Shown: piece after piece, positions 43,079 through 60,157 of the stretch
Layout: every line of letters starts with the position of its first letter
Position numbering within the stretch: the first letter of the stretch is position 1
DNA from: Gemmiger sp. An120
Lineage (GTDB): Bacteria; Bacillota; Clostridia; Oscillospirales; Ruminococcaceae
Reading direction: 5' to 3'
Assembly (NCBI RefSeq): GCF_002160955.1
Contig: NZ_NFLN01000006.1
Location: forward strand, 62,001-126,000
Length of the DNA: 64,000 nucleotides
The notes under the pieces: generated by a model
What the model was told of the DNA's origin: nothing
The model's input: the letters and a program-made list of their open reading frames with translations, nothing else
Databases searched by the model: none
Position numbers and translations under genes: made by a program

Positions 43079-43101
43079 GGTATCGTGATACCCCAGTATC
43101 C
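43079..43101. other. Candidate origin of transfer in the 425-bp region upstream of the relaxase gene
   Basis: Perfect inverted repeat GGTATC-gt-GATACC is followed by CCAGTATCC. An inverted repeat just 5' of a relaxase gene is where oriT and the nick site are expected. The rest of 43021-43445 is GC-rich and holds no supported gene; only short overlapping frames without ribosome sites are seen. Confidence 0.45.
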
Positions 43102-43445: not shown

Positions 43446-44672
43446 TTGAAACTGACACGGCACAACGGACGATCCGGCAAGCATGGCACCTATAATCCCC
43501 GGCACAATGACCGCCGGTTTGATGTGGAAAACAGCGAACACATTGATGCCCAGCGAGCCAAGAAAAATGTGTACTGGGACTGCTACCGTGGTTTCACTAC
43601 CCCAGAACTTCGGGAGAACCCGGAACAGCCGGATTTCAGCTTTGAAGAAATTGAGCGGATGTATTACTACGAGCATTATTCCGACCATGTGGATGCCCAA
43701 AATGCCCGGAACGAGAAAACACGACATACCGAGCGCAACCGCACGGTGGAAGATCTTTTGAAAAACAACAAGACCTGCCCTGAGGAAAGTATTTACCAGA
43801 TTGGCACCATGGAAGAATCCGTTCCACCTGGTACGCTGGCACTCATTGTCAGCGAATTTTACGAGGAGTTTGAACGGCGCTTTGGTTCCCATATCCACAT
43901 TCTGGACTGGGCGCTGCATCTGGATGAGGGTACACCCCACATCCATGAGCGCCATGTGTTTGACTGCAAAAACCGGTATGGAGAGCTGTGTCCCCAACAG
44001 GAAAAGGCGCTGGAGGAACTGGGGTTTGAATTGCCTGATCCGAGTAAGCCCAAGGGCAAACACAACAATCGAAAACAGACTTTTGATGCAGTATGCCGGA
44101 CGCTGCTCTTTGACATCAGCCGCAAACATGGGGTGCATTTGGAGCAGGAGCCGTCCTATGGTGGGCGGGCGTATCTGGAGAAACAGGACTATATCCTGAT
44201 GAAGCAAAAGGAGCAGTTGGCGGCGCAGGAACAAAAGCTGGAGGAGCTGACCCTAAAAATTGAAGATGTGGAAACACTGGTGGAGGAGGTTTCGGATATT
44301 GCCTATGACAAGGCGGTGGAGGTTGTCACCGATACTGTCCGGCTGGAAACCCATAAGGAGGACATCCGGTTGGTGGAAGAAACGAAAACCTGGGTACTCT
44401 CGCCGGAACGGAAAGCACCGCAAAAAGAGCGTGAGTATGCCGCTGCCCGGCTGGATGGAGTAATCTCCAAAATCAAAAATGCCATGCAGTCTGCGCTGAC
44501 AAAAATCCAGAAGAAGCTGATGCAGCCGGAGGTCAAGCAGGCTGGTAAACAGCAGATTCAGGAAAAAGCAAAAGAATCCATCTTGGATTTTCTGCACAAA
44601 GCAAAGCAGGACAACTCGCAGCGGGAGGAAAACCGGAAAAAGCAACAGCGAAAACAGAATATGGAGCGGTAA
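43446..44672 (+). CDS. Mob/Pre-type relaxase (plasmid recombination family)
   Basis: A 408-aa relaxase. The N-terminus (LKLTRHNGRSGKHGTYNPRHNDR) and the His cluster HLDEGTPHIHERHVF near residue 165 form the metal-binding site of the Mob_Pre-like family. A long coiled coil follows (about residues 235-300 and 340-408), ending in a basic, Gln-rich tail. It should nick oriT and pilot the element through a helper ICE channel. The start is TTG 43446, set by GGAGGG 7 bases upstream. Confidence 0.83.
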   Translation: MKLTRHNGRSGKHGTYNPRHNDRRFDVENSEHIDAQRAKKNVYWDCYRGFTTPELRENPEQPDFSFEEIERMYYYEHYSDHVDAQNARNEKTRHTERNRTVEDLLKNNKTCPEESIYQIGTMEESVPPGTLALIVSEFYEEFERRFGSHIHILDWALHLDEGTPHIHERHVFDCKNRYGELCPQQEKALEELGFELPDPSKPKGKHNNRKQTFDAVCRTLLFDISRKHGVHLEQEPSYGGRAYLEKQDYILMKQKEQLAAQEQKLEELTLKIEDVETLVEEVSDIAYDKAVEVVTDTVRLETHKEDIRLVEETKTWVLSPERKAPQKEREYAAARLDGVISKIKNAMQSALTKIQKKLMQPEVKQAGKQQIQEKAKESILDFLHKAKQDNSQREENRKKQQRKQNMER

Positions 44673-44727
44673 GGCATCTGATTTTGCAAACAAATTAGGC
44701 GCCTTTCCCTTGAGGAGGTGAGAAACA

Positions 44728-46113
44728 TTGAACAGCGAATCGCAGAGTTTAGTGCCTGCTCCCCGGCAGGCTGAAAGTGATAAATTGACCGTTGATGAAG
44801 TGCGGGAAAGTCTTTCCACGACAGAAAAAGGACAACCGGCCAACACCATTGGAAATTGCCGTACGGTGTTTTGCGAAGATCCTCTTTTGCGGGGCGCAAT
44901 CCGGCTAAATCTGCTGACCGACCGTGTGGATATTGTGCGGGATCTGGGCTGGCGCAGAAGCACCAGCGCCTTGACCGATACCGATGTCAAATATCTGCTC
45001 CTTTATTTTGAGCAGAACTATGGTTTGACCAGTGAAAAGAAGCTGATGGCGGCGCTCTCCATCGTGGCAAACGAAAACTGCTATCACCCTATCCAGGATG
45101 TGCTGAATAGCCTGGTTTGGGACGACATACCCCGGATACGCTCCTGCCTGCATCATTTTCTGGGGGCAGACGAGAGCAACTATGTGGAAGAAATGCTCAA
45201 ACACTTCCTGCTGGGAGCCATCCGCCGGGTGTTCCATCCAGGTTCCAAGTATGAGGAACTGCTCTGTCTGGTGGGCGGCCAGGGAGCCGGAAAGTCCACC
45301 TTCTTTCGCTTCCTGGCTATACAGGACGAGTGGTTCTCTGATGACCTGAAAAAGCTGGATGACGACAAGGTGTTTGCCAAGCTGCAAGGCCACTGGATCA
45401 TCGAGATGTCGGAGATGCTGGCCACCAGTAACGCCAAGAGCATCGAGGAGATCCGCTCCTTTATCAGCCGCCAAAAGGAAACCTACCGCACCCCCTACGA
45501 GACCCAGCCCAAAGACCGTCTGCGGCAGTGTGTGTTTGGTGGTTCCTCCAACACACTGGATTTCCTACCCCTTGACCGGGCTGGAAATCGCCGGTTCCTG
45601 CCGGTGATGATTTACCCGGAGAAAGCGGAGGTTCACATTTTGGAGGACGAAGCCGCTTCCAGAGAATATCTGTTGCAGGTGTGGGCGGAGGCTATGACCA
45701 TTTACCGCTGCGGAGAGTATTCCATGAAGTTTTCAAAGGAGATTCAGAAGCAGCTGGTGGAGGTTCAAAAGGACTTCATGCCGGAGGATACCGAAGCCGG
45801 GCAGATTCAGGGGTTTCTGGAACACTACACCGGCAATGTGGTCTGCTCCAAGCAGCTGTTCAAGGAAGCGTTGGGACACGCCTTTGAGGAGCCAAAGCGC
45901 TGGCAGCTGCACAACATCAACGAGATCATGAACACGGTGGTGACGGGCTGGAAGCCTTTCTCCAATCCCAGGATGTTTGCTGGATATGGGCGGCAGCGTG
46001 GCTGGGAACGAGAGAGTTTCGGCAACGAACTGCCCGGCAACGAAGGTGGGTTTGTGGAGCTGAGCGAGGAAGAAGTCCGTCAGTTGGAGCTGCCAAAGGA
46101 GTGGATTACCTGA
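44728..46113 (+). CDS. VapE-like primase-helicase
   Basis: A 461-aa protein of the virulence-associated E family, with Walker A GGQGAGKST (residues 183-191), a Walker B-like HWIIEMSEM and an arginine-finger stretch DRAGNRRFLPV. These are superfamily 3-type helicases used for replication of mobile elements. No primase domain is evident in the N-terminal 100 residues. The start is TTG 44728, 9 bases after AGGAGG. It lies between relaxase and recombinase, a common order. Confidence 0.83.
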   Translation: MNSESQSLVPAPRQAESDKLTVDEVRESLSTTEKGQPANTIGNCRTVFCEDPLLRGAIRLNLLTDRVDIVRDLGWRRSTSALTDTDVKYLLLYFEQNYGLTSEKKLMAALSIVANENCYHPIQDVLNSLVWDDIPRIRSCLHHFLGADESNYVEEMLKHFLLGAIRRVFHPGSKYEELLCLVGGQGAGKSTFFRFLAIQDEWFSDDLKKLDDDKVFAKLQGHWIIEMSEMLATSNAKSIEEIRSFISRQKETYRTPYETQPKDRLRQCVFGGSSNTLDFLPLDRAGNRRFLPVMIYPEKAEVHILEDEAASREYLLQVWAEAMTIYRCGEYSMKFSKEIQKQLVEVQKDFMPEDTEAGQIQGFLEHYTGNVVCSKQLFKEALGHAFEEPKRWQLHNINEIMNTVVTGWKPFSNPRMFAGYGRQRGWERESFGNELPGNEGGFVELSEEEVRQLELPKEWIT

Positions 46114-46381
46114 TTTACGGGGCTTGTTGCCCGGTTGGTTGTCGGCTGGTTGCTGACTTTGTTGCCGTAAAAATGGGGGTATAGACACGGTGAATGCCTG
46201 TTAAAGCAAGGCTTTTTGGTGGGTAACTGTTCTCTGACAACGAAAGCAACGAGATTTCACAAGAAAATTTGAAAAGTAAGAAACGATGGCCAGACGATAG
46301 GTTACAGGTTTTTCGGAGTCCGTTGCCGGACTTCGTTGCCGATGCCCTTTGTCTGGCTTTTCTGATCTATGGAGGTAGCCT

Positions 46382-46546
46382 ATGGAGAAAGCCCAAAAGC
46401 AAGAAAACAAGCAGAGCAAAAAAGTAAAATTTATCGTGATACGGGAGTTTTCAGGTGATAAAACCATGCAGGAAGCCTTTGAACAGCTCATTGAACGGCA
46501 AACCTGCGAACACTTTGAAGAATGGCTGGAACGCAAGGCAAGCTGA
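46382..46546 (+). CDS. 54-aa protein upstream of the recombinase
   Basis: A small basic-then-acidic helical protein (MEKAQKQENKQSKKVKFIVI, then TMQEAFEQLIERQTCEHFEEWLER). Proteins of this type precede large serine recombinases in many Firmicute mobilizable elements and may be recombination accessory factors (inferred). GGAGG lies 7 bases before the ATG. The 268 bases before it hold no gene I can support. Confidence 0.68.
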   Translation: MEKAQKQENKQSKKVKFIVIREFSGDKTMQEAFEQLIERQTCEHFEEWLERKAS

Positions 46547-46621
46547 GGGATTTGGTTGAAGAAAAAACAGGGGCATGGTATAATATGTATATCGTGTCCC
46601 TGTTCATAGAAGGAGAACACT

Positions 46622-48265
46622 ATGAGCAGGAAAAAACAAGTCAATCAGAAAATCACAGCCCTCTATTGCCGTATTTCTCTGGACGATGGCGGCGATAACG
46701 AGAGTATGAGTATCAGCAATCAAAAAATCATGCTTCGGGACTTTGCCGAAAAAAACGGGATGTTCCAGTATGAGTATTATGTGGACGACGGTTACACAGG
46801 CCGTAATTTTAATCGCCCAGCTTTTCAGCGTATGATTGCCGATATTGAGGCCGGTAAAATCGGTTGTGTCATTACCAAAGACCTGTCCAGACTGGGAAGA
46901 AATTATATCGAAGCCGGCAGCTATATTGAAATCTTCTTCCCCAAACACAATGTCCGTTATATCGCCATTACTGATGGTGTGGACAGTTTGACCCGTCAGG
47001 AAATGGACATCACGCCCTTCAAGAATATCCTGAATGATATGTATAGCCGGGATATTTCCAAGAAAGTGCTGGCGGGGCGTATCACCCGTTCCCGGCAGGG
47101 AAAGTTCTGTGGCGGACAGCCTCCCCTGGGGCTGATGCGTGACCCGGAGGATCGGGGGCATTTGATCCTTGACCCGGAGACTGCGCCGGTGATTCGCAAA
47201 ATCTATGACCTGGCACTGGATGGCTGGGGCTGTATGCGGATTGCCAAGCAGCTGATGGAGGACAAGGTTCCTATCACCAGAGTAAAAGGAAATACCGCCT
47301 GTGATGTCAACTACTATGCGTGGGGCGGCGCAAGAATCAGCCATATCCTGCGTAACCCTTTTTATAAGGGCGCTCATCTGGTTTGCCGGACACACCAGAA
47401 AGGGATTCGCTCCAACACCTATGACATCATTCCCCGTGAGGACTGGGAAATCATTGAGGGCTGCCATGAAGCGATTGTGACACCGGAGGAATGGGAACAG
47501 GTGCAGGCAATCGTAGATCGCAGGCCACCTATTATGAAAGGAAATGCCTGCCCCTTCTACAACTTGTTCCATGGCATTATCTACTGCGCCACCTGTGGGA
47601 AATCTATGCAGGTGCGGTATGAGAAGGTTGGCAGAACTGGCAAAAACCGCTTTACCGGCGAGATGCGGGAACCGATTGACAAGGCGTATTATATCTGCCA
47701 GACCTACAACCGGTTGGGCAAAAATGCCTGCACCAGTCACAAAATCGAAGCCAGGGATTTATATAATCTCGTCCTGAAAGATATTCAGGAACTGGCAGCG
47801 ATGGCACTCAAAGATGCAGATGCCTTTTATCAGCGGTTGAGCAGACGGATGGAGCGCCGGTATATGGCGGATGCTTCCGAGATGCAGAAAGAGCGTGAAC
47901 GCCTGGAAGCCAGAAACCGAGAAATTGACGATATGTTCCTGAGCCTTTATACCGACAAGGCCAAAGGCGTGATCTCTGAGCAGCGGTTTATGAAGCTGAC
48001 CGCCGCTATGGAGCAGGAGCAGGAAGAAAATCAGCGCCGTTTGCAGGAGCTGTTGCGAATGATTCAGCAGTCCGATGCTCAAGAAAGTGAAGTCTGCACC
48101 TTTATCCGGGAGATTCGACAGTATGCCACCATTCAGGAGTTGGATGAAACGGTGTTGAATCGCCTGATCAGCCGGATTCTGGTGGGTGAAGTCAAAAAGA
48201 TAGACGGCCAGAAGATTCAGGAAGTCAGGATCGTTTATAATTTTGTCGGACAAATCGATATATAA
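46622..48265 (+). CDS. Large serine recombinase (integrase of the nested element)
   Basis: A 547-aa serine integrase of the TnpX/Tn4451 kind. Ser19 in YCRISLDD is the nucleophile, and the resolvase fold runs to about residue 165. The recombinase domain (GQPPLGLMRDPEDRGHLILDP onward) and zinc ribbon (CATCGKSMQVRY ... CQTYNRLGKNACTSH) follow, then a coiled coil near 410-480. It would join attB and attP with a two-base core, fitting the GG seen at both junctions. AGAAGGAG precedes the ATG. It lies in the middle of the element, with cargo continuing to its right, so the RiPP block is part of the element. Confidence 0.93.
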   Translation: MSRKKQVNQKITALYCRISLDDGGDNESMSISNQKIMLRDFAEKNGMFQYEYYVDDGYTGRNFNRPAFQRMIADIEAGKIGCVITKDLSRLGRNYIEAGSYIEIFFPKHNVRYIAITDGVDSLTRQEMDITPFKNILNDMYSRDISKKVLAGRITRSRQGKFCGGQPPLGLMRDPEDRGHLILDPETAPVIRKIYDLALDGWGCMRIAKQLMEDKVPITRVKGNTACDVNYYAWGGARISHILRNPFYKGAHLVCRTHQKGIRSNTYDIIPREDWEIIEGCHEAIVTPEEWEQVQAIVDRRPPIMKGNACPFYNLFHGIIYCATCGKSMQVRYEKVGRTGKNRFTGEMREPIDKAYYICQTYNRLGKNACTSHKIEARDLYNLVLKDIQELAAMALKDADAFYQRLSRRMERRYMADASEMQKERERLEARNREIDDMFLSLYTDKAKGVISEQRFMKLTAAMEQEQEENQRRLQELLRMIQQSDAQESEVCTFIREIRQYATIQELDETVLNRLISRILVGEVKKIDGQKIQEVRIVYNFVGQIDI

Positions 48266-48386
48266 TTGTTTTGATTAAGACTAGACTCAGTAACATTAAT
48301 TATTACAGCAGATGTAATAGAGTTGCTATATTGTTGTGCATTGGAAAATAGGACATTTGAATTAGCGCTAAATAAGGAATATTAAT

Positions 48387-49565
48387 ATGATAAAGTTATA
48401 TAGATATTTTATGCCAAGAAAAGACATTTTTGCAGGTGTCTCAGATTTAAATATTAATTCTTCATATGATATCGAAAAATTTCGGGACATACTTCCAAAA
48501 AACTATGATAGCCAATATATAAGACGTCGAATTGAAACAGAGAAAAAGATGTACGATCTATTCAAGGCCAAAGGAGGCTGTCCCGAAAAAAGACATCCGT
48601 ATTATTTAACTCTAGGTTGTTGCAATGAATGGTTTTTTAAGAAGAAACATTTTTTTGGTAGTGTTGTATTCGATCTTAAGGAATTTGATGAGAAAACCTT
48701 GTCTTTTACATATGGTGATTCCATACCAACATTTATGGACAGATTTTATGATGGTAAAGAATATCGTCGCAATATCTACACGTTGAAAGAAATACAGGGT
48801 ATAATACAAAAATATGGCTATCCCCAACAATGGAACCCCCTTGCAGAGCATGGACCGGAAAATTATATTGAAGTTCAAGTGTGGAGTGAGCACCCTCTTA
48901 TAGCATATCGACCGTGCTTCTATGCTAAAAACAGCGGGCTTGAAGAGCTTGTTCCGCTACTATCGATGCGTATGATGAAAGCTAAGAATATCCCTGAAAC
49001 TGGACAACGAGATTACTGTGAATGTATTAAAATAGCAAAATCTAGTCCATGGTGGGATTGGTTCTGTGCGAATATAAGACAGGCAAACCCCAAGGTGTTT
49101 CAGGCTAATGTGATTCATGGTATTTCACACAGCTATAAATGCGCACTTATGGCGTTTGTCTTGGCTTCGTTTCAAAGGCTAGATGAAATTGATACCAAGA
49201 CGCTTGTGTTAGCTGCACTTTATCATGACATCGGGCGAAGCTATTACGATAATGGCCGTTCACACGGTCAGATTGGTGCCGATATAGTTGTTCAATACAT
49301 TAATTCTAATGAACGCATTCACTGGGGAAAATTAATTCATGCCATTCGTTTTCATGATGCACCAGAGATATTTTCTCAAGATAAAACATTACGTAACTTA
49401 AAAGATGTTGATACTTTAGACTATCTTCGCTTGGGCTTTGGTGAATATAATCCTGAATTTTTGCGAGAAGAAGAATCGAAAAAGTTGATTTTATTTTCTC
49501 TTGAGTTAAACATTTACACATTCATTGATGCAAATATGATCTTGAAATTAGTGAGCGAGGAGTAA
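48387..49565 (+). CDS. HD-domain phosphohydrolase heading the RiPP operon
   Basis: A 392-aa protein. The C-terminal half has an HD metal site (His244 and His248 in HGISHSYK, His280-Asp281 in ALYHDIGR, and a later HGQIGADIV). The N-terminal half (about 230 residues) is of unknown fold, with Cys pairs (CCNEWFF, CECIK). HD enzymes hydrolyse phosphate esters or nucleotides; its link to a peptide pathway is only by position. The gap to the GNAT gene is 4 bp, so they are cotranscribed. It is strongly AT-rich. Confidence 0.78.
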   Translation: MIKLYRYFMPRKDIFAGVSDLNINSSYDIEKFRDILPKNYDSQYIRRRIETEKKMYDLFKAKGGCPEKRHPYYLTLGCCNEWFFKKKHFFGSVVFDLKEFDEKTLSFTYGDSIPTFMDRFYDGKEYRRNIYTLKEIQGIIQKYGYPQQWNPLAEHGPENYIEVQVWSEHPLIAYRPCFYAKNSGLEELVPLLSMRMMKAKNIPETGQRDYCECIKIAKSSPWWDWFCANIRQANPKVFQANVIHGISHSYKCALMAFVLASFQRLDEIDTKTLVLAALYHDIGRSYYDNGRSHGQIGADIVVQYINSNERIHWGKLIHAIRFHDAPEIFSQDKTLRNLKDVDTLDYLRLGFGEYNPEFLREEESKKLILFSLELNIYTFIDANMILKLVSEE

Positions 49566-49569
49566 AATA

Positions 49570-50118
49570 ATGGAATTAAATATGCGCAACTATGTTGCTG
49601 GTGCAGATTATGGAGAAGTATATAGGCTTTTCACACACATGTCTGTTAATCCTATGATCATCAATAAACCGGATCACAATAGCATGACAGTATTTTCCAA
49701 GTGGTTTGATCGACACTTAGAAACAGACTATCATGACTTTATGATATTCACTACGTCTGAAGAGCAATTCGTTGGTTTTGCGTATTCTTACGAGTTTCAA
49801 GAGCTCAATGGCCATTGTCAATTTACAGTGGCTGTAAAGCCAGAATTTCAAATGACAGGCGTAGGGGGAATTATTTCAATCAAGTTTTTAAATTATCTTT
49901 TTGCACACTATAATTTGCGAAAGGTTTATATCCACATTTATGAACATAATGTTCATTCTCGCCAATGCGTAGAATCTTTTGGGTTTTGTCTAGAAGGAAC
50001 ATTGCAAGAGTATAGATTTTATAACGGCGAGTTTGAGAATGTATTGATTTATGCAGTCACAAGGGAGCGGTTTCACGCCATTATTAAGCAAATGAACTTT
50101 TTTAATAATGGCGTATAA
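49570..50118 (+). CDS. GNAT-family acyltransferase
   Basis: A 182-aa N-acyltransferase with the GNAT fold; the acyl-CoA/pantetheine motif region is FQMTGVGGIISIKFL near residue 97, and RQCVESFGFCLEGTLQEYRF is the late motif. It lies 4 bp after the HD gene and 33 bp before the precursor. With the ACP and the AMP ligase downstream, it is a candidate for moving an acyl chain from acyl-ACP to the peptide, as GNAT enzymes do in some lipidated RiPPs. Self-resistance by acetylation is the alternative. Confidence 0.82.
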   Translation: MELNMRNYVAGADYGEVYRLFTHMSVNPMIINKPDHNSMTVFSKWFDRHLETDYHDFMIFTTSEEQFVGFAYSYEFQELNGHCQFTVAVKPEFQMTGVGGIISIKFLNYLFAHYNLRKVYIHIYEHNVHSRQCVESFGFCLEGTLQEYRFYNGEFENVLIYAVTRERFHAIIKQMNFFNNGV

Positions 50119-50150
50119 ACCATAATCTATATTGGAAGGAGGTAATTTGA

Positions 50151-50447
50151 ATGAAAAAGTTCGATGTCTTTAAGGCACCCGCTCTTTGCCCTGCCGGTGA
50201 AGCCCCTATCAGCCGTGCGCCTATGTTCTTTGCATCCTGGAAGGATGAAGGCTACGGGAGATGGAGCAATTCTACTGCAAGTTGGAAAGATAGCGGAGGC
50301 TGGAGCAACTCTACCGCTAGCTGGAAAGATGGCGGCTACGGACAATGGAGCAACTCTACCTCAAGCTGGCGAGATAGCGGAGGTTGGAGCAACTCTACTG
50401 CGAGTTGGCGAGACAGCGGAGGCTGGAGCAATTCTGGCGGAAAGTGA
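50151..50447 (+). CDS. RiPP precursor peptide with five W-x-D/W-x-N repeats
   Basis: A 98-aa peptide. Residues 1-28 look like a leader (MKKFDVFKAPALCPAGEAPI). Then come five tandem units of 13-15 residues: SWKDEGYGRWSNSTA, SWKDSGGWSNSTA, SWKDGGYGQWSNSTS, SWRDSGGWSNSTA and SWRDSGGWSNSGGK. All ten tryptophans (30, 38, 45, 51, 58, 66, 73, 79, 86, 92) have Asp or Asn at position +2, alternating W-K/R-D and W-S-N. W-x-N/D triplets are substrates of radical SAM cyclophane (triceptide) enzymes. GGAAGGAGG precedes the ATG. Silent codon changes between units show the repeats are kept by selection. Two radical SAM genes follow. Confidence 0.88.
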   Translation: MKKFDVFKAPALCPAGEAPISRAPMFFASWKDEGYGRWSNSTASWKDSGGWSNSTASWKDGGYGQWSNSTSSWRDSGGWSNSTASWRDSGGWSNSGGK

Positions 50448-50463
50448 TACAATTTAATTGACG

Positions 50464-50504
50464 GAGCGACCCGTCGGATGGGGACTCCATTCGACGGGTC
50501 GCTC
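50464..50504 (+). promoter_or_regulatory. Strong hairpin (attenuator) between precursor and enzyme genes
   Basis: An 18-bp stem with a perfect outer 13 bp (GAGCGACCCGTCG with CGACGGGTCGCTC) and loop GGACT, then an AT-rich ACTATTTATTATT. Between a RiPP precursor and its maturases such a hairpin usually lets much more precursor than enzyme be made. It could also stabilise the 3' end of precursor mRNA. Confidence 0.75.
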
Positions 50505-50532
50505 ACTATTTATTATTAGGAGGAGATTAGCA

Positions 50533-51738
50533 GTGGGGGCAAATAATGCTTATCTTGCTTTGGGGTATGCCTGTAATGAAAAATGTAGGTGTTGCCCCCT
50601 AATACATAAAAATGATCGTGAAAAATTTATTCCTTTGGATCGCCTTCTGAAGGAAGCTGATCAGATAGTATCATACGGCGTACGCGATGTAACGTTGTCT
50701 GGAGGAGAGCCGACAATTCATCAAGACCTGTTTCAATTAATTACATACTTTCACACGAAAGGAATCAATGTGCATATCCTTTCTAACGGAGAGCGTTTTT
50801 CAGATAAATCATATGCAAATGAATTCTTAGAATTGCAAAAAAATGGTGTATTAACAGTTACTACTACATTTCACAGTTGGAATGCAGCAGAACACGAGTA
50901 TCAAAATGGTTCACAGGGAAGTTTTTTGCGAAGTCTGCAGGGCCTCCAGTATTTAGATAGAAATGGTGTTCAGATTTCGGTAAAACATTGCATTACAGCA
51001 AATAATTATCGCCAACTTCCCCAATATATTCAGTTTGTAATAGGGGCTTTTTCTTCCCAGGCAGAAATCCAGCTCTGGGGAATTGATTTAAATGGCTTAG
51101 AGAGAAAATTTGCGCAGGCAAATTTTGTTGATTTTCAATTGGTGAAACCTTACATTGAAGAGGCCATCGATGTGTTTGAGTCATCGGGAAGAGCAAAAGA
51201 TCAAATTCTTTCAATCAACAATCTTCCTCTATGTATGTGTGATTGCTATTATTGGAAATATTTTACTTCACCCAAAGCAGATTCTTATGTTGATCACAAA
51301 AAAGGCGGTGAAATCATGGAGGCGAATTCAGGACCGCTTTCTATACACTGCCAAAAGTGTCCCTTTTATAATAGTTGTATGGGCGCCTATTTTAGCGATT
51401 TTGACATATTTGGTAATAATATTGTGTCCGTTCCAAAAGAGGAAGCTGAAATAAATCATTTTCAGAGAAGTTTCAAGTTTTATACAGAACAAGCTATAGA
51501 AAAGATGGTGTTTTCTCCGTATTTAAACCATGAACTACGTCGAAACGGCTACACGATAACAAATTATCTATCAGGAGAAACTATCCAAATTCGACTAAAG
51601 ACAAAGGAAATTCTCCATTTGCAGAAAATGCTGTTTTATGGTGTTTCTCTCGATGAATTAATTTTGTGCTTAAATGAATTTGGCTTAAACGGAGTGACAG
51701 TAGTGGACGAATGGATGAGAAAGGGAGTGATTGAATAA
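50533..51738 (+). CDS. Radical SAM peptide-maturation enzyme 1
   Basis: A 401-aa radical SAM enzyme. The cluster motif is Cys14-x3-Cys18-x2-Cys21 (ACNEKCRCC), and the SAM-binding SGGEP follows near residue 57. The C-terminal half has Cys pairs for an auxiliary cluster (CMCDCYYW near 234; CQKCPFYNSCMG near 274), a short SPASM/Twitch-like region, and a final helical stretch that may bind the leader. GTG 50533 is chosen because AGGAGGAG lies 7 bases upstream; the frame extends further without a site. It overlaps the next gene by one base (TAATG). It likely modifies the repeat peptide. Confidence 0.87.
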   Translation: MGANNAYLALGYACNEKCRCCPLIHKNDREKFIPLDRLLKEADQIVSYGVRDVTLSGGEPTIHQDLFQLITYFHTKGINVHILSNGERFSDKSYANEFLELQKNGVLTVTTTFHSWNAAEHEYQNGSQGSFLRSLQGLQYLDRNGVQISVKHCITANNYRQLPQYIQFVIGAFSSQAEIQLWGIDLNGLERKFAQANFVDFQLVKPYIEEAIDVFESSGRAKDQILSINNLPLCMCDCYYWKYFTSPKADSYVDHKKGGEIMEANSGPLSIHCQKCPFYNSCMGAYFSDFDIFGNNIVSVPKEEAEINHFQRSFKFYTEQAIEKMVFSPYLNHELRRNGYTITNYLSGETIQIRLKTKEILHLQKMLFYGVSLDELILCLNEFGLNGVTVVDEWMRKGVIE

Positions 51739-53123
51739 TGGATTACCAATATCTTTTGCCTTTTGAATGGAACGAATTTTCATTTTGTGGTGCTCATTGT
51801 TTTTTTACAGACAAATGGTCTTTTTTGTTGTCCCAAAATGGTTCATCAATAATATTACAGAATAGTCTCGTGCAGTCCATTGAAAACAAAAAATTGTCGG
51901 AAGATCTGGCGTTTAAACTTTATCAACGTGGATTTGGATTAGTATACGGACAGGAACGTTTTTCAAATTTCTGCCATGATATACGACCCACATTATTCAT
52001 GATCGATTTTACAACCAAATGCAACTGTAATTGCATCTACTGCCTACGCCATTTTGAGGGAGTTGGAAATGATATTTCCGATGATATGTTGAAACAGATT
52101 ACTCAGTATATAATTACATACTGTAAGCAAAACAATATTTATCATATTTCTTTTCAGCCATGGGGTGGGGAACCACTAATTATGCTGGATCAAATATTAA
52201 AGTGTAAGCAAATGTTTGAAAAAGCTCAAATCCGAGCTGATTTTAATATTCAAACGAACGGTTTGCTACTTAATCTAACAAATTATGAGAAATTGCGAAA
52301 GTCTCATATTGCCATTGGTGTGAGTCTAGATGGAATTGAAGCTGTGCATGATGCTCACCGGTTAGACACTTCTGGAAATACTACGCATAGCAGAGTTGTC
52401 AAAAATATAAGGGAAATACTTGCAAAATATCCTGATGCAAATATTGGGACATTGAGCGTTAACTCTGTCTATTCTTTTGATCATGTTGAAGAAAATATAG
52501 ACTATTTAGTTAATGAAATTGGATTACACAGTATTAAGTTTAATTTGGTCCATCCTAGTGGTACAAAATCATTCGATTATTCAATGTTAATTTCGGAAAA
52601 ATCATTAGAAAAATACGTGGATAAGCTATTCAACGCAGTGGTTCAACAAACTCGATGTGGCCGAAATTTCCGAGAAGCAAATATTACTGATAAACTGAGA
52701 AACCTTCTTGATCGTTCGAATAACAACATTTGCAATTCAATGGGGTGCCGCGGAGGCATTTCCTTTATTTCCTTTGATCAGAAAGGAAATATTTACCCTT
52801 GTGAGATGATTGGGCGACCTGAATTTTGCCTTGGAAATATCGAGAATCAGGGGGATAATCTTCTGGATCTGATTCATAGCGCCCAGGAGCATAATCATTA
52901 TTATGCTCCGAAAAAAACAGAAACGTGTTCTGATTGTCCGTACCTGTATTTTTGTCGGGGAGGATGTAAAGCGAATTGCTTAGCATATGGCAAAGAACCT
53001 TTCCAGATCGATCACATCGAGTGCGCGTTGAACCGGAGTTTGTATCCCCGTCTGATTGAATTGATTCTCACAGAGCCTGAGTTAGTTGAAAGAATGTCAG
53101 GCCTTCACATACAAAGGAGGTAA
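51738..53123 (+). CDS. Radical SAM/SPASM peptide-maturation enzyme 2 (HxsB-like layout)
   Basis: A 461-aa enzyme. An N-terminal domain of about 80 residues resembles the leader-binding region of SPASM peptide maturases, followed by Cys95-x3-Cys99-x2-Cys102 (KCNCNCIYC) and GGEP near 146. The C-terminal SPASM domain has seven or more Cys (CEMIG, CSDCPYLYFCRGGCKANCL, ECAL), enough for two auxiliary 4Fe-4S clusters. The RPTLFMIDFTTKCN segment recalls HxsB of the His-Xaa-Ser repeat system, also a paired radical SAM system acting on repeats. It probably forms the Trp-Asp/Asn bonds; which of the two enzymes acts at W-x-D and which at W-x-N is unknown. Confidence 0.88.
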   Translation: MDYQYLLPFEWNEFSFCGAHCFFTDKWSFLLSQNGSSIILQNSLVQSIENKKLSEDLAFKLYQRGFGLVYGQERFSNFCHDIRPTLFMIDFTTKCNCNCIYCLRHFEGVGNDISDDMLKQITQYIITYCKQNNIYHISFQPWGGEPLIMLDQILKCKQMFEKAQIRADFNIQTNGLLLNLTNYEKLRKSHIAIGVSLDGIEAVHDAHRLDTSGNTTHSRVVKNIREILAKYPDANIGTLSVNSVYSFDHVEENIDYLVNEIGLHSIKFNLVHPSGTKSFDYSMLISEKSLEKYVDKLFNAVVQQTRCGRNFREANITDKLRNLLDRSNNNICNSMGCRGGISFISFDQKGNIYPCEMIGRPEFCLGNIENQGDNLLDLIHSAQEHNHYYAPKKTETCSDCPYLYFCRGGCKANCLAYGKEPFQIDHIECALNRSLYPRLIELILTEPELVERMSGLHIQRR

Positions 53124-53129
53124 TTGGAT

Positions 53130-54899
53130 GTGTTAGATCAATCCTTTTTTTATAAACGATTTTCCATTGGGTTGACCTTGGACACTAGTTTAAAAGAATT
53201 TAATGCATTCTTGGACAAATATTCGGATTATATTAATAATTTTTATTTTTCGCTGCCAATGGGTGATAAATTCCATGCAAGGACACAGGTTATAAAACAA
53301 ATGCATGACCCTAAACTTGTAGATCGATTCTGGCAGCTTCTGGGTTGTATTCGTTCCCATAACATCAAGATGGAACTGGTACTAAATAATGGAAGGGTAA
53401 GCCGTGATGACGTCAAAAGATCTGCTCGGATGTTATATGATCACGGAGTCAATGTTGATTTGGTTGGAATAACGGATGATATTTATAATGATGTAAAATC
53501 CTTTTTCCCAACACAAAGGATTGTCTATAGTTTTAAAAATCATATCCATACGGAAAAAGAGTTTGCAGCCTTGACTCACCGGTATGATGAGATCGTATTA
53601 GGGCGTCAGAATATCCGAAATACATCCCTTTTTTCATTTATCAAGCAGCATTTGCACGCTGATGTAGTCCTTCTGCTTAATAACGGATGTTCACACGTTT
53701 GTGGTGGATGCACAACTTTGAAGAATTGCCATCGTGCTTATTATCAAGAAAAATTTCAGCATAGTCCGGAATATCTGTATGCGCTGCAAAGTCTCATGCC
53801 TTTTGAAATTCATACCGGGCTGCTGGATGTGTCTAATGTGCACTTATTCAAAATCAGTTCCCGCAATGCGTCTCTGAAATATATAAAAGATTGCCTGGAT
53901 AGCTATCTGTTTTGTGAGGAGGATTCGTACATCAAGCAAAACATCGAAAATTATATGCTATGGTCCAGACTAGCTTGGCATACAGAGTATTTCAACGGTT
54001 TTTCATTGGAGCGTATCAGAGCAACAAAGGAAAAGATTTACCAAGGAATAAAATCGAGTGAATTCCCCTCCTATGTTCGAGTGATATTGGATTTACGCAA
54101 TCAGTATCTGTTCCAGGGAGACCAGGTGCCGGATCTACCTGTATTGGAAGAAAAACTGAAAACATTTTTTGGCAGAATTCCCATGAAGGTAGAAGGGTAC
54201 CTCATTGGCGTATCAAACTGTGCCAATCTATTAAGCCACATTTATATAAATCATATGAAGTCTCTTCTTAATACACTGAGCAGTACTGGGCGTAAAGTGT
54301 ATTTTTCCGTTCCGCCTCTAACACAAAGCCAGCACTTCGCATTTGTAAATCTTTGGAATTGTTTGAAGGAATGTATCAAAGCAAAGTATCTTGATTGTTT
54401 AGTGGTTAATGATATTGACACAGAGTCTTTTTTCAAGAATTATTTTCAAGTTTCGATAGCTTTCGGAGAGAGGCTAACGAAAAGACATATCCAGACTGTA
54501 AAAAATGACTATCTGACAGGAAATGAACCAGGCTTTGGAAAAGACCTAATAGATGCATTTCTTCGGGAAGAATATGTCAAAAATGATATTTGTTTTATAT
54601 TGTGCAATATGCCGGGTGGAGGTATGTGTATTAGCCCTTATGAATCTGTCCAGATTCATACTTTAGTTGGACTTGTAGAAAACTATGATGGAGCCTGTCC
54701 GCAGTCTCATGAAAAAACGTGCGATGGGAAATGCATGACCGCAATGAACACGATTCTGAAATCTGAATATGGAGATAAGTTGGTGATTTGCGCCAATTCG
54801 GTATGCGATGTTGTGAAAATCTCAGATAGTGTTCTGAAAACTGTTTTAGAAAATAGGGCTTGCGTTGTTATTCCATCAATTTGGAGGGAGTTGCTGTAG
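53130..54899 (+). CDS. Large Cys-rich double-barrel protein, U32/UbiU-UbiV-like (uncertain)
   Basis: A 589-aa protein I cannot assign firmly. Its first 200 residues read as a TIM-barrel (FSIGLTL, KMELVLNN, VDLVGIT, EIVLGRQNIRN), ending in VVLLLNNGCSHVCGGC, with Cys187-x3-Cys191-x2-Cys194 and Cys200 as a possible 4Fe-4S ligand set. From about residue 310 a second barrel-like half follows, with FGERLTKRHIQ and late Cys (CPQSHEKTCDGKC). This resembles two fused U32-type domains, as in the UbiU-UbiV pair that hydroxylates without oxygen. GTG 53130 is set by AGGAGG 9 bases upstream; TTG 53124 is possible. It lies inside the operon, so a tailoring role is likely. Confidence 0.72.
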   Translation: MLDQSFFYKRFSIGLTLDTSLKEFNAFLDKYSDYINNFYFSLPMGDKFHARTQVIKQMHDPKLVDRFWQLLGCIRSHNIKMELVLNNGRVSRDDVKRSARMLYDHGVNVDLVGITDDIYNDVKSFFPTQRIVYSFKNHIHTEKEFAALTHRYDEIVLGRQNIRNTSLFSFIKQHLHADVVLLLNNGCSHVCGGCTTLKNCHRAYYQEKFQHSPEYLYALQSLMPFEIHTGLLDVSNVHLFKISSRNASLKYIKDCLDSYLFCEEDSYIKQNIENYMLWSRLAWHTEYFNGFSLERIRATKEKIYQGIKSSEFPSYVRVILDLRNQYLFQGDQVPDLPVLEEKLKTFFGRIPMKVEGYLIGVSNCANLLSHIYINHMKSLLNTLSSTGRKVYFSVPPLTQSQHFAFVNLWNCLKECIKAKYLDCLVVNDIDTESFFKNYFQVSIAFGERLTKRHIQTVKNDYLTGNEPGFGKDLIDAFLREEYVKNDICFILCNMPGGGMCISPYESVQIHTLVGLVENYDGACPQSHEKTCDGKCMTAMNTILKSEYGDKLVICANSVCDVVKISDSVLKTVLENRACVVIPSIWRELL

Positions 54900-56288
54900 A
54901 TGGAAAATTATCCGGATTACCCTGTACGCAAAGTTTTGAATCTGCTTGCATTGCTGCAAACTAGCGTTGAACTTTATGGCACGCAGGCTGCTTTTTGTAG
55001 AACACAAGAAAAGATTACATATCATCAGTTTGAGAGAGCAGTGCTGTGTGTTGCAGGTTCTCTGATACACGATCAGGGCCGTTTTATTCTAATTCATGCA
55101 GAAGATCCTTTTTTATTTGCAGCGGCTTATTTTGCAACTGTAATTACAGGGAATATTGCAGTACTGATAGATATGGAACATTGCCCATCTGGCGCAGTAC
55201 TTCCTCCCATTGAATATACTCTGACCGATACGGACATTCTCAAACATCTGGATATCCCTCCCATTTCCTACAATAGCGTACCCCCTCAAAACTCAGAAAC
55301 GGTTTGTACTATTATTTACAGTTCTGGTACCACTAGTGCATCAAAAGGAATCATGTTATCGCAAAAAAATCTTTGTTGCAATGTTATGAGTGGTTTGGAA
55401 AAATATCGTTTTTCCTGTGAGGATCGGTTGCTCCAATTAATTCCTTATTATCATGCTTTCGGTCTAGTGTGTGATTTGCTGGCTCCGTTGTTGTCTGGAA
55501 GTGCAATCTGCATACCGGACAGCAAAGCGCAGGCGCTATCCCAAATGGCATCTTTCAGACCGACGATGATGAATGTGCCTCCCGCTGTAGCAGAAGCGTT
55601 TTTGACTCTAGCTAGACGAACGAAAAATCTAGATATATTTACTGGCGGACAACTCCGCAAACTATTATGTGGAGGAGCAGGCCTTCGGGCAGAAACAACA
55701 AAAGCTTTACTGCAATGGAATATTAAAGCGTTAGGCTGCTATGGTGTAAGCGAATGTTCACCTTGTATTAGCGTTAACAGGGATAACTATTATAAAGCAG
55801 GTAGTGCTGGAATTCCGTTAAATTGCAATAAAGTCCGCATCGCTGAGGATGGTGAAATTATAATCCGCGGAGATAATGTAATGCTTGGGTACTATGGTGA
55901 TCCAGAGTTAACTGCGCAAGTAATTGTAGACGGAGAATACCATACTGGCGATCTTGGATATTGGGATGAAGATGGATTCCTCTATGTCAGTGGAAGAAAA
56001 AATAATATAATTGTATTCGAAGATGGAACCAAATGTTTGCCCGAAAAATTAGAAGAAGTTATTTTAAAGCACCCTGGAGTGCAAGAGGTCATAGTTTTTG
56101 CAAGGAAGACAAGCAGCGGATTACGACTATGCTCCTTAGTTTATGTTCCAGAGATAGCGAGACAGGAAGAGATAAAAAAATATATTCTGAGCATCCCAAC
56201 CTATCAGCCTTTTTTTAGCATTGAATTTACACAAAAGCCGTTACCAAAAACTAATACTGGAAAGGTGAAGAGAAATGTATGGAACTGA
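54900..56288 (+). CDS. AMP-forming acyl ligase (ANL superfamily)
   Basis: A 462-aa adenylate-forming enzyme. The P-loop YSSGTTSASKG spans residues 140-150; the GDLGYWDEDGFLYVSGRKNNIIV hinge lies near 356-378, and the catalytic Lys455 in NTGKVKRN is present. It resembles fatty acyl-AMP or acyl-CoA ligases rather than amino-acid adenylation domains, but the acid is not decided. The gene starts directly after the preceding stop, and its end overlaps the ACP gene by 10 bp. The natural reading is that it loads an acyl group onto that ACP. Confidence 0.87.
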   Translation: MENYPDYPVRKVLNLLALLQTSVELYGTQAAFCRTQEKITYHQFERAVLCVAGSLIHDQGRFILIHAEDPFLFAAAYFATVITGNIAVLIDMEHCPSGAVLPPIEYTLTDTDILKHLDIPPISYNSVPPQNSETVCTIIYSSGTTSASKGIMLSQKNLCCNVMSGLEKYRFSCEDRLLQLIPYYHAFGLVCDLLAPLLSGSAICIPDSKAQALSQMASFRPTMMNVPPAVAEAFLTLARRTKNLDIFTGGQLRKLLCGGAGLRAETTKALLQWNIKALGCYGVSECSPCISVNRDNYYKAGSAGIPLNCNKVRIAEDGEIIIRGDNVMLGYYGDPELTAQVIVDGEYHTGDLGYWDEDGFLYVSGRKNNIIVFEDGTKCLPEKLEEVILKHPGVQEVIVFARKTSSGLRLCSLVYVPEIARQEEIKKYILSIPTYQPFFSIEFTQKPLPKTNTGKVKRNVWN

Positions 56289-56497
56289 AGGACTTAATTA
56301 AAGTAATTGAACGATTCATACCCGATTATAGGAATAGCGTAACAGATGAAACACTCCTAACGGATTTGGGCCTTTCTTCCTTGGACATGATGATTTTAAT
56401 TTGTGAAATAGAGAAAATTTATAAAATTGATATCGATTTAACTATGTTGAAAAATATAAAAACTGTTAAGGACTTTTATGCTGCAGTTATACAATGA
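56279..56497 (+). CDS. Acyl carrier protein
   Basis: A 72-aa four-helix carrier protein. LGLSSLDMM places Ser34 as the phosphopantetheine site. It is encoded overlapping the ligase gene. No ketosynthase or thioesterase is nearby, so it is more likely a one-step acyl donor for the GNAT enzyme or the peptide than part of chain synthesis (inferred). A host 4'-phosphopantetheinyl transferase would be needed. Confidence 0.88.
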   Translation: MELKDLIKVIERFIPDYRNSVTDETLLTDLGLSSLDMMILICEIEKIYKIDIDLTMLKNIKTVKDFYAAVIQ

Positions 56498-56511
56498 AAG
56501 GAAGGGCTTAA

Positions 56512-57147
56512 ATGCAAAGTTTTCTGTTCACAGAATTGCTGTTTCCTGCTATTTCTACAGTAATCGGGGCGTTGGTTGGCGGATTATTTGCCTATAAAAT
56601 CGCAAAAGAGAGATTTGCGTCTGATTATATAAACGAAGGGAAACTAGGGATTTCGATAGTGAGCGATTCCGCTAGGAACATCAAAGATACGGCCAATGAG
56701 TTGTACATTATTTTAATAAATAGGACAGGCCGTTCGACGACAGAATTTCTTTCATTACTTATAGATAAAAATAATGCTTTAGAAAATTATTTGAATATCT
56801 TTACATCGGACTGGAAAAATTATCGAGAAAAAATCCTTTCTTGTACTTTTCCTTACATTTGTAAAGATTCGGATAAGCGCAAAAATTTCTGTGAGATATC
56901 TGAAACAATCAAAGAGACATATATAATTATCGGAGAATATCAAGATCTAATAAAAGATTGCTACAAGGAAATCAAGCGTGAGGACACACGCGAATTTACG
57001 GCGAAAACTATATCATTCATGGGCACACTCGATGCTCAAACAAAGCTGTCATCTGCAAAAGATCGATTGCAACAATTGGTTAAAAAATGCGAATTAATAT
57101 GTAACCAACAAAGGTTAACGGATGAAAATGAAACTCGTCGGGCATGA
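56512..57147 (+). CDS. Single-pass membrane protein of unknown function at the RiPP operon end
   Basis: A 211-aa protein. An N-terminal membrane helix (FPAISTVIGALVGGLFAY, residues 11-28) is followed by a helical cytoplasmic or extracellular domain with four Cys. AAAGGAAGG precedes the ATG, 14 bases after the ACP stop, so it is probably in the same operon. It may be an immunity or membrane-anchoring factor; no family was recognised. No ABC exporter or leader peptidase is encoded in the cluster. Confidence 0.7.
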   Translation: MQSFLFTELLFPAISTVIGALVGGLFAYKIAKERFASDYINEGKLGISIVSDSARNIKDTANELYIILINRTGRSTTEFLSLLIDKNNALENYLNIFTSDWKNYREKILSCTFPYICKDSDKRKNFCEISETIKETYIIIGEYQDLIKDCYKEIKREDTREFTAKTISFMGTLDAQTKLSSAKDRLQQLVKKCELICNQQRLTDENETRRA

Positions 57148-57328
57148 TAGTGGCGAATAAATTATTGCATTGCCATATGAGTTGTTGGAAGTTAATAAAC
57201 GCAAAAATTTATGAGTTCACTGTGGTTAAATTCAACTATATATGGTTTTTGTTTCAACTTTGACACTATTTCTATGTACGCGGTACGCGCAATAATGATT
57301 CTACATATGTATTTATCAATTCAGTCGT

Positions 57329-57366
57329 AACAACTCCTTCTCGGCTAAGAGAAGGGGTTGTTTTTT
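57329..57366 (+). terminator. Rho-independent terminator at the right end of the nested element
   Basis: A 14-bp stem with one G-U pair (AACAACTCCTTCTC with GAGAAGGGGTTGTT), then TTTTT. It ends the RiPP operon 30 bases before the right junction. The remaining 57148-57396 is AT-rich with no gene. Confidence 0.9.
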
Positions 57367-57384: not shown

Positions 57385-57410
57385 ACTTGACATTATGGCA
57401 AAGAGTTGAT
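57385..57410. other. Right attachment junction of the nested element
   Basis: Element sequence ends in GACATTAT-GG and virD4 resumes with CAAAGAGTTGATG. The GG shared with the left junction (29621-29622) is the proposed crossover core. Confidence 0.7.
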
Positions 57411-57678
57411 GTCACAGGACGAGATCGCCACGATGGACGGAGGCAAGTGTATTTTGCAGGTGCGCGGTGTCAGGCCATTTTTCAGTGAGAAATACGACAT
57501 TACCCGTCACCCCCGCTATAAATACCTTTCCGACGCCGACAAGAAAAACTATTTTGACGTGGACAGGTACTTGACCGCCCTGCGCCGGAAACGGCAGCGG
57601 GTGGTTTCGCAGGAGGAAACCTTTGACCTCTACGACATAGACCTGTCGGACGAAGATATGGCCGCCGTGAACGAGTGA
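57397..57678 (+). pseudogene. VirD4-like coupling protein, 3' part
   Basis: The last 93 residues of the coupling protein (GKELMSQDEIATMDGGKCIL onward, ending LSDEDMAAVNE). A TTG near 57406 could serve as a start, but the product would lack all ATPase motifs, so this is the severed end of the gene at 28091. Its frame continues exactly from codon 510 of that gene. It precedes the small ICE gene at 57706. Confidence 0.92.
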
Positions 57679-59224: not shown

Positions 59225-59239
59225 TTGGAGGTGCAACCG

Positions 59240-60157
59240 ATACGAATAGGACTGATTGATGTGGATTCCCACAATTTTCCCAACCTCTGCCTGATGAAGC
59301 TGTCTGCCTACCACAAGGCGCAGGGCCATCAAGTGATGTGGTGGAACCCGCTGTTTTACTTTGATGTGGTCTACAAAAGCCGGGTGTTTACGGACACCTA
59401 TTCCAAAGACAAGATCACCGTCACCAACGCCGGAACCGTTATCAAGGGCGGCACGGGGTACGGCCCCGGCCCTGACCTGCCGGATGCAATCGAACACACC
59501 TACCCGGACTATTCACTCTATCCGCAGTATTCCGAAACCGCCTACGGCTTTTTAAGCCGGGGCTGTCCAAGGGGCTGCGGATTTTGCATTGTCGGAGGCA
59601 AGGAGGGCCGCCGGAGCCGGAAAGTGGCCGACCTGTCCGAGTTTTGGCGGGGCCAGCGGGAAATCAAACTGATGGACGCAAACCTGCTGGCCTGTCCCGA
59701 CCATGAAAGCCTGCTTTTGCAGCTTGCCGACAGCCGGGCGCTGGTAGACTTCTCCCAAGGGCTTGACATCCGCCTGATAACGCCCGACAATGTGGCGCTT
59801 CTCAACCGTGTGCGGACGAAAGCCGTACATTTCGCATGGGATAACCCCAACGAGGATTTGACGGGCTATTTCCAGCGGTTCGTGGAAATGACGGCGATTA
59901 AGAATTTCCGCAATCGCCGGGTGTATGTGCTGACGAACTATGGCAGCACCCATGAACAGGACTTGTACCGCGTGGAAACCCTGCGGCGCATGGGCTTTGA
60001 TCCGTTTGTGATGATCTATGAAAAGCCCACGGCCCCGCCCATTACCCGCTGTTTGCAGCAATGGGTGAACAACAAGCGGGTGTTTCACGTCGTCGAAAAC
60101 TTTTACGACTTTGAGCCGGTAAAAAAGCTGCGGAACAGCAGCATGGAAACGAGGTGA
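59240..60157 (+). CDS. Radical SAM protein of the ICE transfer operon
   Basis: A 305-aa radical SAM enzyme. The N-terminus (RIGLIDVDSHNFPNLCLMKLS) resembles a cobalamin-binding-like fold, and the cluster motif is SRGCPRGCGFCIVGG (Cys-x3-Cys-x2-Cys). Such proteins recur in Tn1549-like operons; their role is unknown. The start is unclear: GGAGG is spaced 8 bases from ATA 59240, which gives the expected N-terminus, while GTG 59231 would sit directly on that site and TTG 59225 lacks one. It is separate from the RiPP cluster. Confidence 0.8.
   Translation: MRIGLIDVDSHNFPNLCLMKLSAYHKAQGHQVMWWNPLFYFDVVYKSRVFTDTYSKDKITVTNAGTVIKGGTGYGPGPDLPDAIEHTYPDYSLYPQYSETAYGFLSRGCPRGCGFCIVGGKEGRRSRKVADLSEFWRGQREIKLMDANLLACPDHESLLLQLADSRALVDFSQGLDIRLITPDNVALLNRVRTKAVHFAWDNPNEDLTGYFQRFVEMTAIKNFRNRRVYVLTNYGSTHEQDLYRVETLRRMGFDPFVMIYEKPTAPPITRCLQQWVNNKRVFHVVENFYDFEPVKKLRNSSMETR

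Follow-up and report, generated by a model that had tools for sequence, protein, structure and literature searches.

A candidate RiPP gene cluster combining a radical SAM pair with acyl-loading genes on a probable mobile element of Gemmiger sp. An120

The 64,000-nucleotide stretch of Gemmiger sp. An120 analyzed here (contig NZ_NFLN01000006.1, positions 62,001 to 126,000; hereafter the window, whose own numbering is used throughout) harbors nine plus-strand genes, all with open frames, which make up one compact block of approximately 8.8 kb (48387 to 57147). The reading which we favor, and to which we give an even chance, is that this block is a mobile-element-borne cluster for a ribosomally synthesized and post-translationally modified peptide (RiPP), in which tryptophan residues would be closed into cyclophanes by radical S-adenosylmethionine (SAM) proteins and an acyl group would be supplied by an AMP-forming ligase, an acyl carrier protein (ACP) and a GNAT acyltransferase. 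As regards its parts, a poly-cyclophane RiPP is the somewhat probable product, judging from sequence and from analogy with characterized maturases, while acylation through the ligase, ACP and GNAT is proposed more tentatively, at slightly less than an even chance. If true, the cluster would unite two RiPP chemistries which we found described only separately, namely, radical SAM cyclophane formation and GNAT/carrier-fed acylation.

The gene block and its tryptophan-repeat precursor

The block opens with a gene for a 392-amino-acid (aa) protein (48387 to 49565, + strand, as are all genes of the block) with an HD domain at residues 246 to 346 (PF01966, 35.7 bits, and TIGR00277, 30.1 bits, both above cut-off), residues 1 to 241 of which matched no NCBIfam model. 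It is followed by genes for a 182-aa GNAT acyltransferase (49570 to 50118; PF13420, 39.4 bits, PF13302, 39.7 bits, and PF00583, all above the Pfam cut-off); the 98-aa predicted precursor peptide (50151 to 50447), which has a GGAGG box closely 5′ of its gene; a 401-aa HxsC-like radical SAM protein, radical SAM 1 (50533 to 51738; CX3CX2C at residue 14; PF04055, 61.2 bits); a 461-aa HxsB-like radical SAM protein of the peptide-maturase type with a Cys-rich C-terminus, radical SAM 2 (51738 to 53123; CX3CX2C at residue 95; PF04055, 37.8 bits); a 591-aa protein (53124 to 54899) whose N-terminal barrel-type domain bears CX3CX2C plus a fourth Cys and whose C-terminal part yielded no relatives; a 462-aa AMP-forming acyl ligase (54900 to 56288; PF00501, 165.7 bits); a 72-aa ACP (56279 to 56497; PF00550, 34.8 bits); and a 211-aa last protein of no family (56512 to 57147). 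The nine genes, with their places and strand, had been listed in a preliminary description of the window and are borne out here, as are the HD, GNAT, AMP-binding, PP-binding and both radical SAM domains, all of which scored above Pfam cut-offs.

The genes are spaced by 4, 32, 85, -1, 0, 0, -10 and 14 bp, the start of radical SAM 1 being placed at 50533; with this start, 85 bp separate the precursor from the first enzyme gene. An earlier placement of the radical SAM 1 start at a TTG codon (50458) is not upheld, translation most likely starting at the GTG codon at 50533 behind a GGAGGAG box; the longer, TTG-initiated frame would begin 5′ of a strong hairpin. The last protein, which had been called a membrane protein, does contain one hydrophobic N-terminal stretch and is probably membrane anchored, although this label reflects a reading of that stretch by eye. 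The predicted precursor, the 591-aa protein and the 211-aa protein gave no family match at an E value of 0.1, and wider scans returned sub-cut-off matches only. A role of the block in anti-phage defense was considered and rejected, since PADLOC shows only weak viperin cross-matches to both radical SAM proteins.

The predicted precursor consists of a 27-residue leader-like part followed by five repeats of the form [AS]SW[KR]D...WSNS. All ten of its Trp residues lie inside W-x-[DN] motifs (five W-x-D and five W-x-N), the D and the N being fixed in every repeat. Ten such motifs were reached by none of 20000 shuffles of the precursor core, and the maximum count was three among 5761 open reading frames (ORFs) of 30 to 200 aa from 100 overlapping sequences, copies of the precursor gene being excluded. 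The peptide contains no His and a single Cys in its 98 residues. When the repeats were compared at the codon level in ten pairs, which are not independent of each other, the coding frame held 31 synonymous and 21 non-synonymous differences, against synonymous:non-synonymous counts of 11:48 and 8:44 when the same joined codons were read in the two alternative frames; the comparison covered 11 alignable codons per repeat and left out the two to four variable middle codons and two codons after the last repeat. Because the synonymous excess is found in the reading frame only, the peptide itself seems to be conserved. The G+C content of the precursor gene (54%, against 30 to 41% in neighboring genes and 38% in the block overall) may stem from the Trp/Gly-rich repeat itself or from a recent repeat expansion. 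A match to the precursor in a viral sequence (L100) sits within a 655-aa protein of different make-up and was rejected as chance.

Downstream of the precursor gene lies a terminator-like hairpin (50464 to 50504, + strand), which is a possible attenuator. The stretch from 50446 to 50540 folds at -39.5 kcal/mol (z, -6.54), and equal stability was seen in none of 200 shuffles. In a pattern scan the hairpin ranked first of seven terminator-like sites where 6.2 are expected by chance, such that the scan alone proves nothing; a promoter scan was likewise uninformative (33 sites against 32.5 expected).

The radical SAM pair and its known relatives

Radical SAM 1, scanned as the longer 426-aa frame, is closest to HxsC (TIGR03977, 120.2 bits against a cut-off of 267.9), with a 52-bit lead over the next family (68.1 bits). 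Radical SAM 2 scored 130.4 bits for sulfatase maturase, 119.2 for HxsB, 119.2 for DynA and 104.5 for PapB, all below the respective cut-offs, and its nearest solved structures are 5wgg and 4k37. In L023, a locus of the same class whose HxsC lies above cut-off, the gene for HxsC and the radical SAM gene that follows it, the latter named HxsB by position and 26% similarity and not by a hidden Markov model (HMM) scan, are found in the same order and with the same overlap as the block's pair, to which they are 23% and 26% identical over the aligned parts. We regard the pair as diverged, HxsC/HxsB-like proteins which lie far under the family cut-offs and are not filed as members.

The His-Xaa-Ser (Hxs) system, reportedly described by Haft and Basu in 2011, is said to combine HxsB and HxsC with a repeat peptide. 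The accessible part of PMC9062424 cites this system and calls its role putative. The block resembles it in having an adjacent radical SAM pair in HxsC-HxsB order and overlap together with a repeat peptide, but differs in that both proteins score well under the cut-offs, the repeats are W-x-[DN] with no His, and ligase, ACP, GNAT and barrel genes are added. Canonical Hxs membership was accordingly rejected on account of the HxsC and HxsB scores (120.2 and 119.2 bits) and the absence of His-Xaa-Ser repeats from the precursor; no match to HxsD was named in the scan, which covered the nine block proteins. No paper on the chemistry of an HxsC/HxsB-type enzyme pair was found in the open-license literature, a second paper besides PMC9062424 going no further than listing the genes. 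If the favored reading is right, the ten copies of one substrate motif in the repeat precursor would offer a probe of that chemistry.

A parallel to the repeat motif is provided by the triceptides. According to the part of PMC11002830 available, OscB links C7 of Trp to the C-beta of an Asn or Asp located at i+2, and XncB uses C6 of Trp together with the C-beta of Asn or Arg. The block shares with the triceptide systems treated there (XncB, OscB and MscB) an aromatic-x-[DN] motif beside a maturase-type radical SAM protein, whereas it departs from them in its radical SAM pair, which scores under the listed cyclophane family cut-offs, in its ten motifs and in its acyl-loading genes. As the fixed W-x-D and W-x-N of each repeat match OscB/XncB chemistry, up to ten cyclophanes are predicted. 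The proposal of the preliminary description that radical SAM proteins cross-link Trp in a RiPP pathway is well supported by the anatomy of the block, that is, by the repeat precursor, the adjacent maturase-type pair and the W-x-[DN] motif.

Radical SAM proteins have also been reported alongside carrier proteins: a Roseburia intestinalis cluster combines radical SAM and acyl-carrier-related proteins (the CcpM system; PMC4573289, as far as accessible), and this family of systems (TIGR04066 and TIGR04069) resembles the block in that a clostridial cluster holds both a radical SAM maturase and a protein of the carrier type. The TIGR04069 carrier family was detected in 8 of 291 genomes of the class at an E value of 1e-8, 7 of them above cut-off. 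Eleven neighborhoods from 8 genomes (L089 to L099), covering 12 of the 19 places found, were compared with the block and ORFs were inspected in six; each contains a relative of radical SAM 2, none matched any of the other eight block proteins (tblastn, E value of 0.001, a search that is weak for small proteins), and no ORF in the 11 carries the ligase A3 motif. An ACP-like ORF was present in one (L091:14963-15217, - strand, 84 aa), approximately 4 kb from the CcpM-type radical SAM gene. Unlike the block, these loci hold, by eye, Cys-rich small peptides and in some cases protease- and ABC-like genes. CcpM membership of the block was rejected, given 71.5 of 500 bits for TIGR04068, 20.4 of 70 bits for its ACP against TIGR04069, and a precursor with one Cys.

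The novelty earlier claimed for the presence of both kinds of chemistry in one cluster requires narrowing in view of the CcpM work: radical SAM plus carrier is published (PMC4573289, accessible part), whereas a GNAT with a cyclophane-type radical SAM protein was not found in the open-license literature. That literature, which covers few subscription journals, likewise yielded no paper on a radical SAM cyclophane and GNAT/carrier-fed acylation on one RiPP, and the available parts of PMC8326336 and PMC12654047 hold nothing on such a combination.

Acyl loading, the barrel protein and competing readings

The three acyl-loading proteins carry the motifs expected of them: A3, TGD and A10-Lys in the ligase and the LGLSSLD attachment site in the ACP, all of which are read as functional sites, and the P-loop QMTGVG at residue 94 of the GNAT. 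The significance of that P-loop for GNATs is treated in PMC13060382 (accessible part). Acylation of RiPPs by GNATs is on record, either N-terminally or at Lys/Orn (PMC9505594, PMC13060382 and PMC10373908, each in the part available); acyl loading of the peptide by the block's ligase, ACP and GNAT is plausible, a lipid being just one among several possible acyl groups. The block resembles GNAT-acylated RiPP clusters (selidamides, nostolysamides, goadvionins, microvionin and goadsporin) in the position of a GNAT beside the precursor and differs from them in its predicted radical SAM cross-linking, which is not described for those RiPPs in the accessible parts of the same three papers. Most such RiPPs are lanthipeptides, goadsporin and an HEXXH/MNIO cluster with a GNAT lying outside that class (PMC12636437, accessible part). 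NpuN-like GNATs go with NHLP or Nif11-type leaders (PMC13060382, accessible part); the block's precursor matches no Pfam or NCBIfam model, and thus no leader of either type.

We propose the following pathway. The hairpin would halt much of the transcription ahead of the enzyme genes, such that the precursor would be made in excess. The radical SAM pair would link each Trp ring to the C-beta of Asp or Asn at i+2, yielding, to judge by motif and enzyme type, up to ten three-residue cyclophanes at a cost of 2 Da each. The ligase would activate a carboxylic acid and load it onto the ACP, from which the GNAT may move the acyl group to a peptide amine, either N-terminal or on a Lys. The four-Cys barrel protein of 591 aa might act together with the radical SAM proteins, either in redox support or by making a third modification of its own, and the HD protein and the last protein could, at a guess, serve release, immunity or anchoring. 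The nine-gene set, at approximately 8.8 kb, is small enough for transfer into a laboratory host.

A scan of 84,980 genomes, using two short patterns only, yielded five relatives of the N-terminal half of the 591-aa protein (L006 to L010; 35 to 39% identity). In the six aligned rows (window, L003, L006, L007, L009 and L010, with L008 omitted as a likely duplicate of L003), Cys189, Cys193, Cys196 and Cys202 are invariant. A model of the N-terminal 310 residues has an overall predicted local distance difference test score (pLDDT) of 75, falling below 50 at residues 187 to 213, where the Cys residues sit; the full-length model is poor (pLDDT, 52). The barrel model resembles many TIM barrels, the best Z score (13.0) being that of pyruvate kinase, and the U32 protein 5d88 occupies row 47 of the best 50 (Z score, 11.9; root-mean-square deviation, 3.9; 193 aligned residues) and Foldseek rank 25. 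The U32-like label previously given to the protein is without statistical support from Pfam, NCBIfam or profile comparison: PF01136 (U32) gave no match even at E values up to 10 with the six aligned rows, and hhalign against 11 U32 proteins of related genomes returned a weak match (probability, 0.8%; E value, 0.067; 35 columns). A weak Radical_SAM match was obtained for two of the six rows (best E value, 0.0019). A VD stretch, the Cys cluster and FKI..R...Y follow each other in an order that, by eye, is reminiscent of U32 rows. A U32-like nature is plausible, and the protein is best described as a barrel with a likely iron-sulfur site, U32-like at best.

In four of the five loci (L006, L007, L008 and L010), a CX3CX2C radical SAM gene (382 to 385 aa; Pfam-checked in L007 only) lies approximately 1.7 to 2 kb downstream of the barrel gene; in L009, no such downstream gene was found by tblastn. 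If the relationship holds, the barrel protein would define a new family with links to radical SAM genes. The L007 radical SAM gene is located after a gene for a DUF5685 protein and before one for a DUF92 protein, and a 205-aa protein is also encoded there. The stand-alone barrel and radical SAM genes form a recurrent block (L006, L007, L008 and L010, near 9990 to 15450).

A number of observations weigh against the cyclophane-plus-acylation reading. No protease or exporter was recognized within the block. Radical SAM 2 lies above no family cut-off among the 25 matches listed of 68 families, and stays below the cut-offs of cyclophane maturases (81.3 of 310 bits for GrrM/OscB, 91.9 of 445 for YhhB, 69.2 of 370 for FxsB and 72.3 of 425 for AmcB); XncB is not among the 25 families listed. 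The nearest solved relatives of the GNAT are diamine/spermidine N-acetyltransferases, and it could instead be an acetylating self-resistance enzyme. The nearest solved relative of the ligase is feruloyl-CoA synthetase, and since aryl-CoA as well as fatty-acyl ligases are among its nearest solved relatives, the group transferred may be something other than a lipid; taken with the polyamine acetyltransferases near the GNAT, this makes more than one acyl group and acceptor conceivable. The genome draws (394, 398, 391, 297, 147, 21 and 291 genomes, which overlap), plasmids and viral contigs searched gave no second copy of the cluster in which co-variation of precursor and enzymes might be seen. 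Finally, the ten same-class loci with an HxsC-type protein contain no relative of the GNAT, ACP or barrel protein (tblastn, E value of 0.01).

These ten neighborhoods, which come from nine other genomes, also lack a relative of the HD protein, precursor or last protein in the same search; single-protein tblastn is weak for small or diverged proteins, and with the block's ACP it missed, in the TIGR04069 loci, ACP-related genes that an HMM found there. They derive from the HxsC-type proteins detected, at an E value of 1e-20, in 10 of 391 genomes of the class, Gemmiger sp. An120 included, two of which lie above cut-off. Ligase matches occur in two (L022 and L025, tblastn), the latter weak (E value, 1.7e-6); the 592-aa AMP ligase of L022, approximately 4 kb from the HxsC-type pair and FadD-like by eye, was not counted as a parallel. 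ORFs were inspected in 7 of the 10. At an E value of 1e-25, radical SAM 1 was found in its own genome only among 398 of the phylum, and no close homologues turned up that could be checked for the presence or absence of repeat peptides nearby. The whole barrel protein was likewise confined to its own genome among 394 genomes of the order, apart from two partial or chance matches, and among 297 of the family; a weak 39-residue match in L004 beside a recA-like gene was taken as chance. Searches of viral contigs with the barrel protein, the two radical SAM proteins, the GNAT and the ligase were negative, as was that of plasmids with the barrel protein. Radical SAM 1 had 409 plasmid records, all below 60% identity and none covering 80%; the 20 listed are 28% identical and mostly annotated HxsC. 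By eye, L024 to L027 combine several radical SAM genes with a small acidic protein of 100 to 109 aa carrying SAD(S/A)AVYTPD, and are apparently another peptide system.

Among the alternatives, a RiPP of other chemistry is possible, if somewhat unlikely. The peptide would then bear different links or radical changes, the ligase and ACP would handle an acid other than a lipid (aryl, amino or hydroxy) or a substrate for the radical SAM or barrel proteins, and the GNAT would only acetylate. Sulfatase maturase, HxsB, DynA and PapB, which differ in chemistry, lie at similar distances from radical SAM 2; the families nearest the ligase are long-chain-fatty-acid and menE-type ligases, next to the structural proximity to feruloyl-CoA synthetase noted above; the affinity of the GNAT to diamine acetyltransferases is in keeping with such a role; and TVGG-repeat precursors with cyclopropylglycine illustrate that repeat precursors can bear unrelated chemistry (PMC9062424, accessible part). 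The occurrence of all ten Trp residues in W-x-[DN], with D and N fixed in each repeat, suits three-residue cyclophanes in particular, however, and is less readily accommodated by this alternative.

U32 proteins provide a precedent for oxygen-independent hydroxylation, and the barrel protein has a radical-SAM-like CX3CX2C that would lie late in its barrel; if U32-like in function, it could hydroxylate the peptide or the acyl chain without oxygen. That the block represents a new RiPP class, with a polymer-like peptide bearing up to ten Trp-Asp/Asn cyclophanes from the HxsC/HxsB-like pair, an acyl line of its own and further changes by a new four-Cys TIM-barrel enzyme, on a cluster mobile between Clostridia, is nevertheless doubtful.

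It is unlikely that the block houses two adjacent pathways, with the precursor and radical SAM proteins making a peptide and the ligase, ACP, HD protein and last protein serving a separate cargo function. Such a division might be suggested by the other cargo, including a different GNAT gene, in the corresponding slot of the sister element L043 described below, and by the 11 radical SAM/ACP-related loci without a tblastn relative of the block's ligase or GNAT. Nonetheless, the 0-, 0- and -10-bp spacings across radical SAM 2, barrel, ligase and ACP genes point to a single operon, and the precursor is preceded on its own strand by the HD and GNAT genes, at gaps of 4 and 32 bp. It is very improbable that the Trp-repeat protein is a structural or toxin-like repeat protein with the enzymes acting on something else, for although the precursor has no family and no homologue of known modification was found, its small size, short leader-like N terminus, core repeats, hairpin and place directly 5′ of two maturase-type radical SAM genes all argue otherwise.

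The carrier element and its other cargo

The cluster is probably carried on mobile DNA. The element concerned spans 29625 to 57400, with ends uncertain by a few bases, and is inserted in the virD4 gene of a larger element. This coupling-protein gene is split into two parts (28091 to 29677 and 57406 to 57678), whereas the virD4 of L042 is unbroken (603 aa) and aligns with the window as far as 29628, the match resuming at approximately 57397 (the aligner extends this second part back to 57374); this break in the match indicates that some 27.8 kb is inserted in virD4. The gene is also uninterrupted at the insertion point in L044, L045 and L046. The larger element is probably conjugative, and since its virD4 is split it may need outside help for transfer.

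A sister element at the same site, L043, is 92 to 94% identical to the window over 29624 to 30101 and 42423 to 48249 and shares the right end from 57349, but holds approximately 1.6 kb of other cargo where the window has 48250 to 57348. With the same ends and core and different cargo in the two elements, the cluster is seen to sit in a variable cargo slot beside a large serine recombinase (46622 to 48265, + strand; PF07508, PF00239, PF14287 and PF13408, all above cut-off). The L043 slot cargo (L043:17170-18788) encodes a protein of 312 aa that has no family and a GNAT of 160 aa. The G+C content is 38% in the cluster, 51% in the recombinase-side core and 65% in the first 25 kb of the window. 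A 413-aa protein (43431 to 44672) is relaxase-like by eye and matched no Pfam model; the element may be mobilizable.

Further genes were noted in the vicinity. Within the mobile element, a Gabija-type pair is encoded on the minus strand at 30445 to 34193 (PADLOC; GajB, 690 bits, and GajA, 718 bits). Also noted were a candidate restriction-modification unit (34269 to 39493, - strand), both of whose large proteins have type II methyltransferase-like parts, with a restriction-like C-terminus on the first, and a gene of the PADLOC candidate family PDC-S01 (39552 to 40895, - strand; 614 bits). Downstream of virD4, a gene at 59225 to 60157 (+ strand) gave a weak radical SAM match of 20.8 bits, below cut-off.

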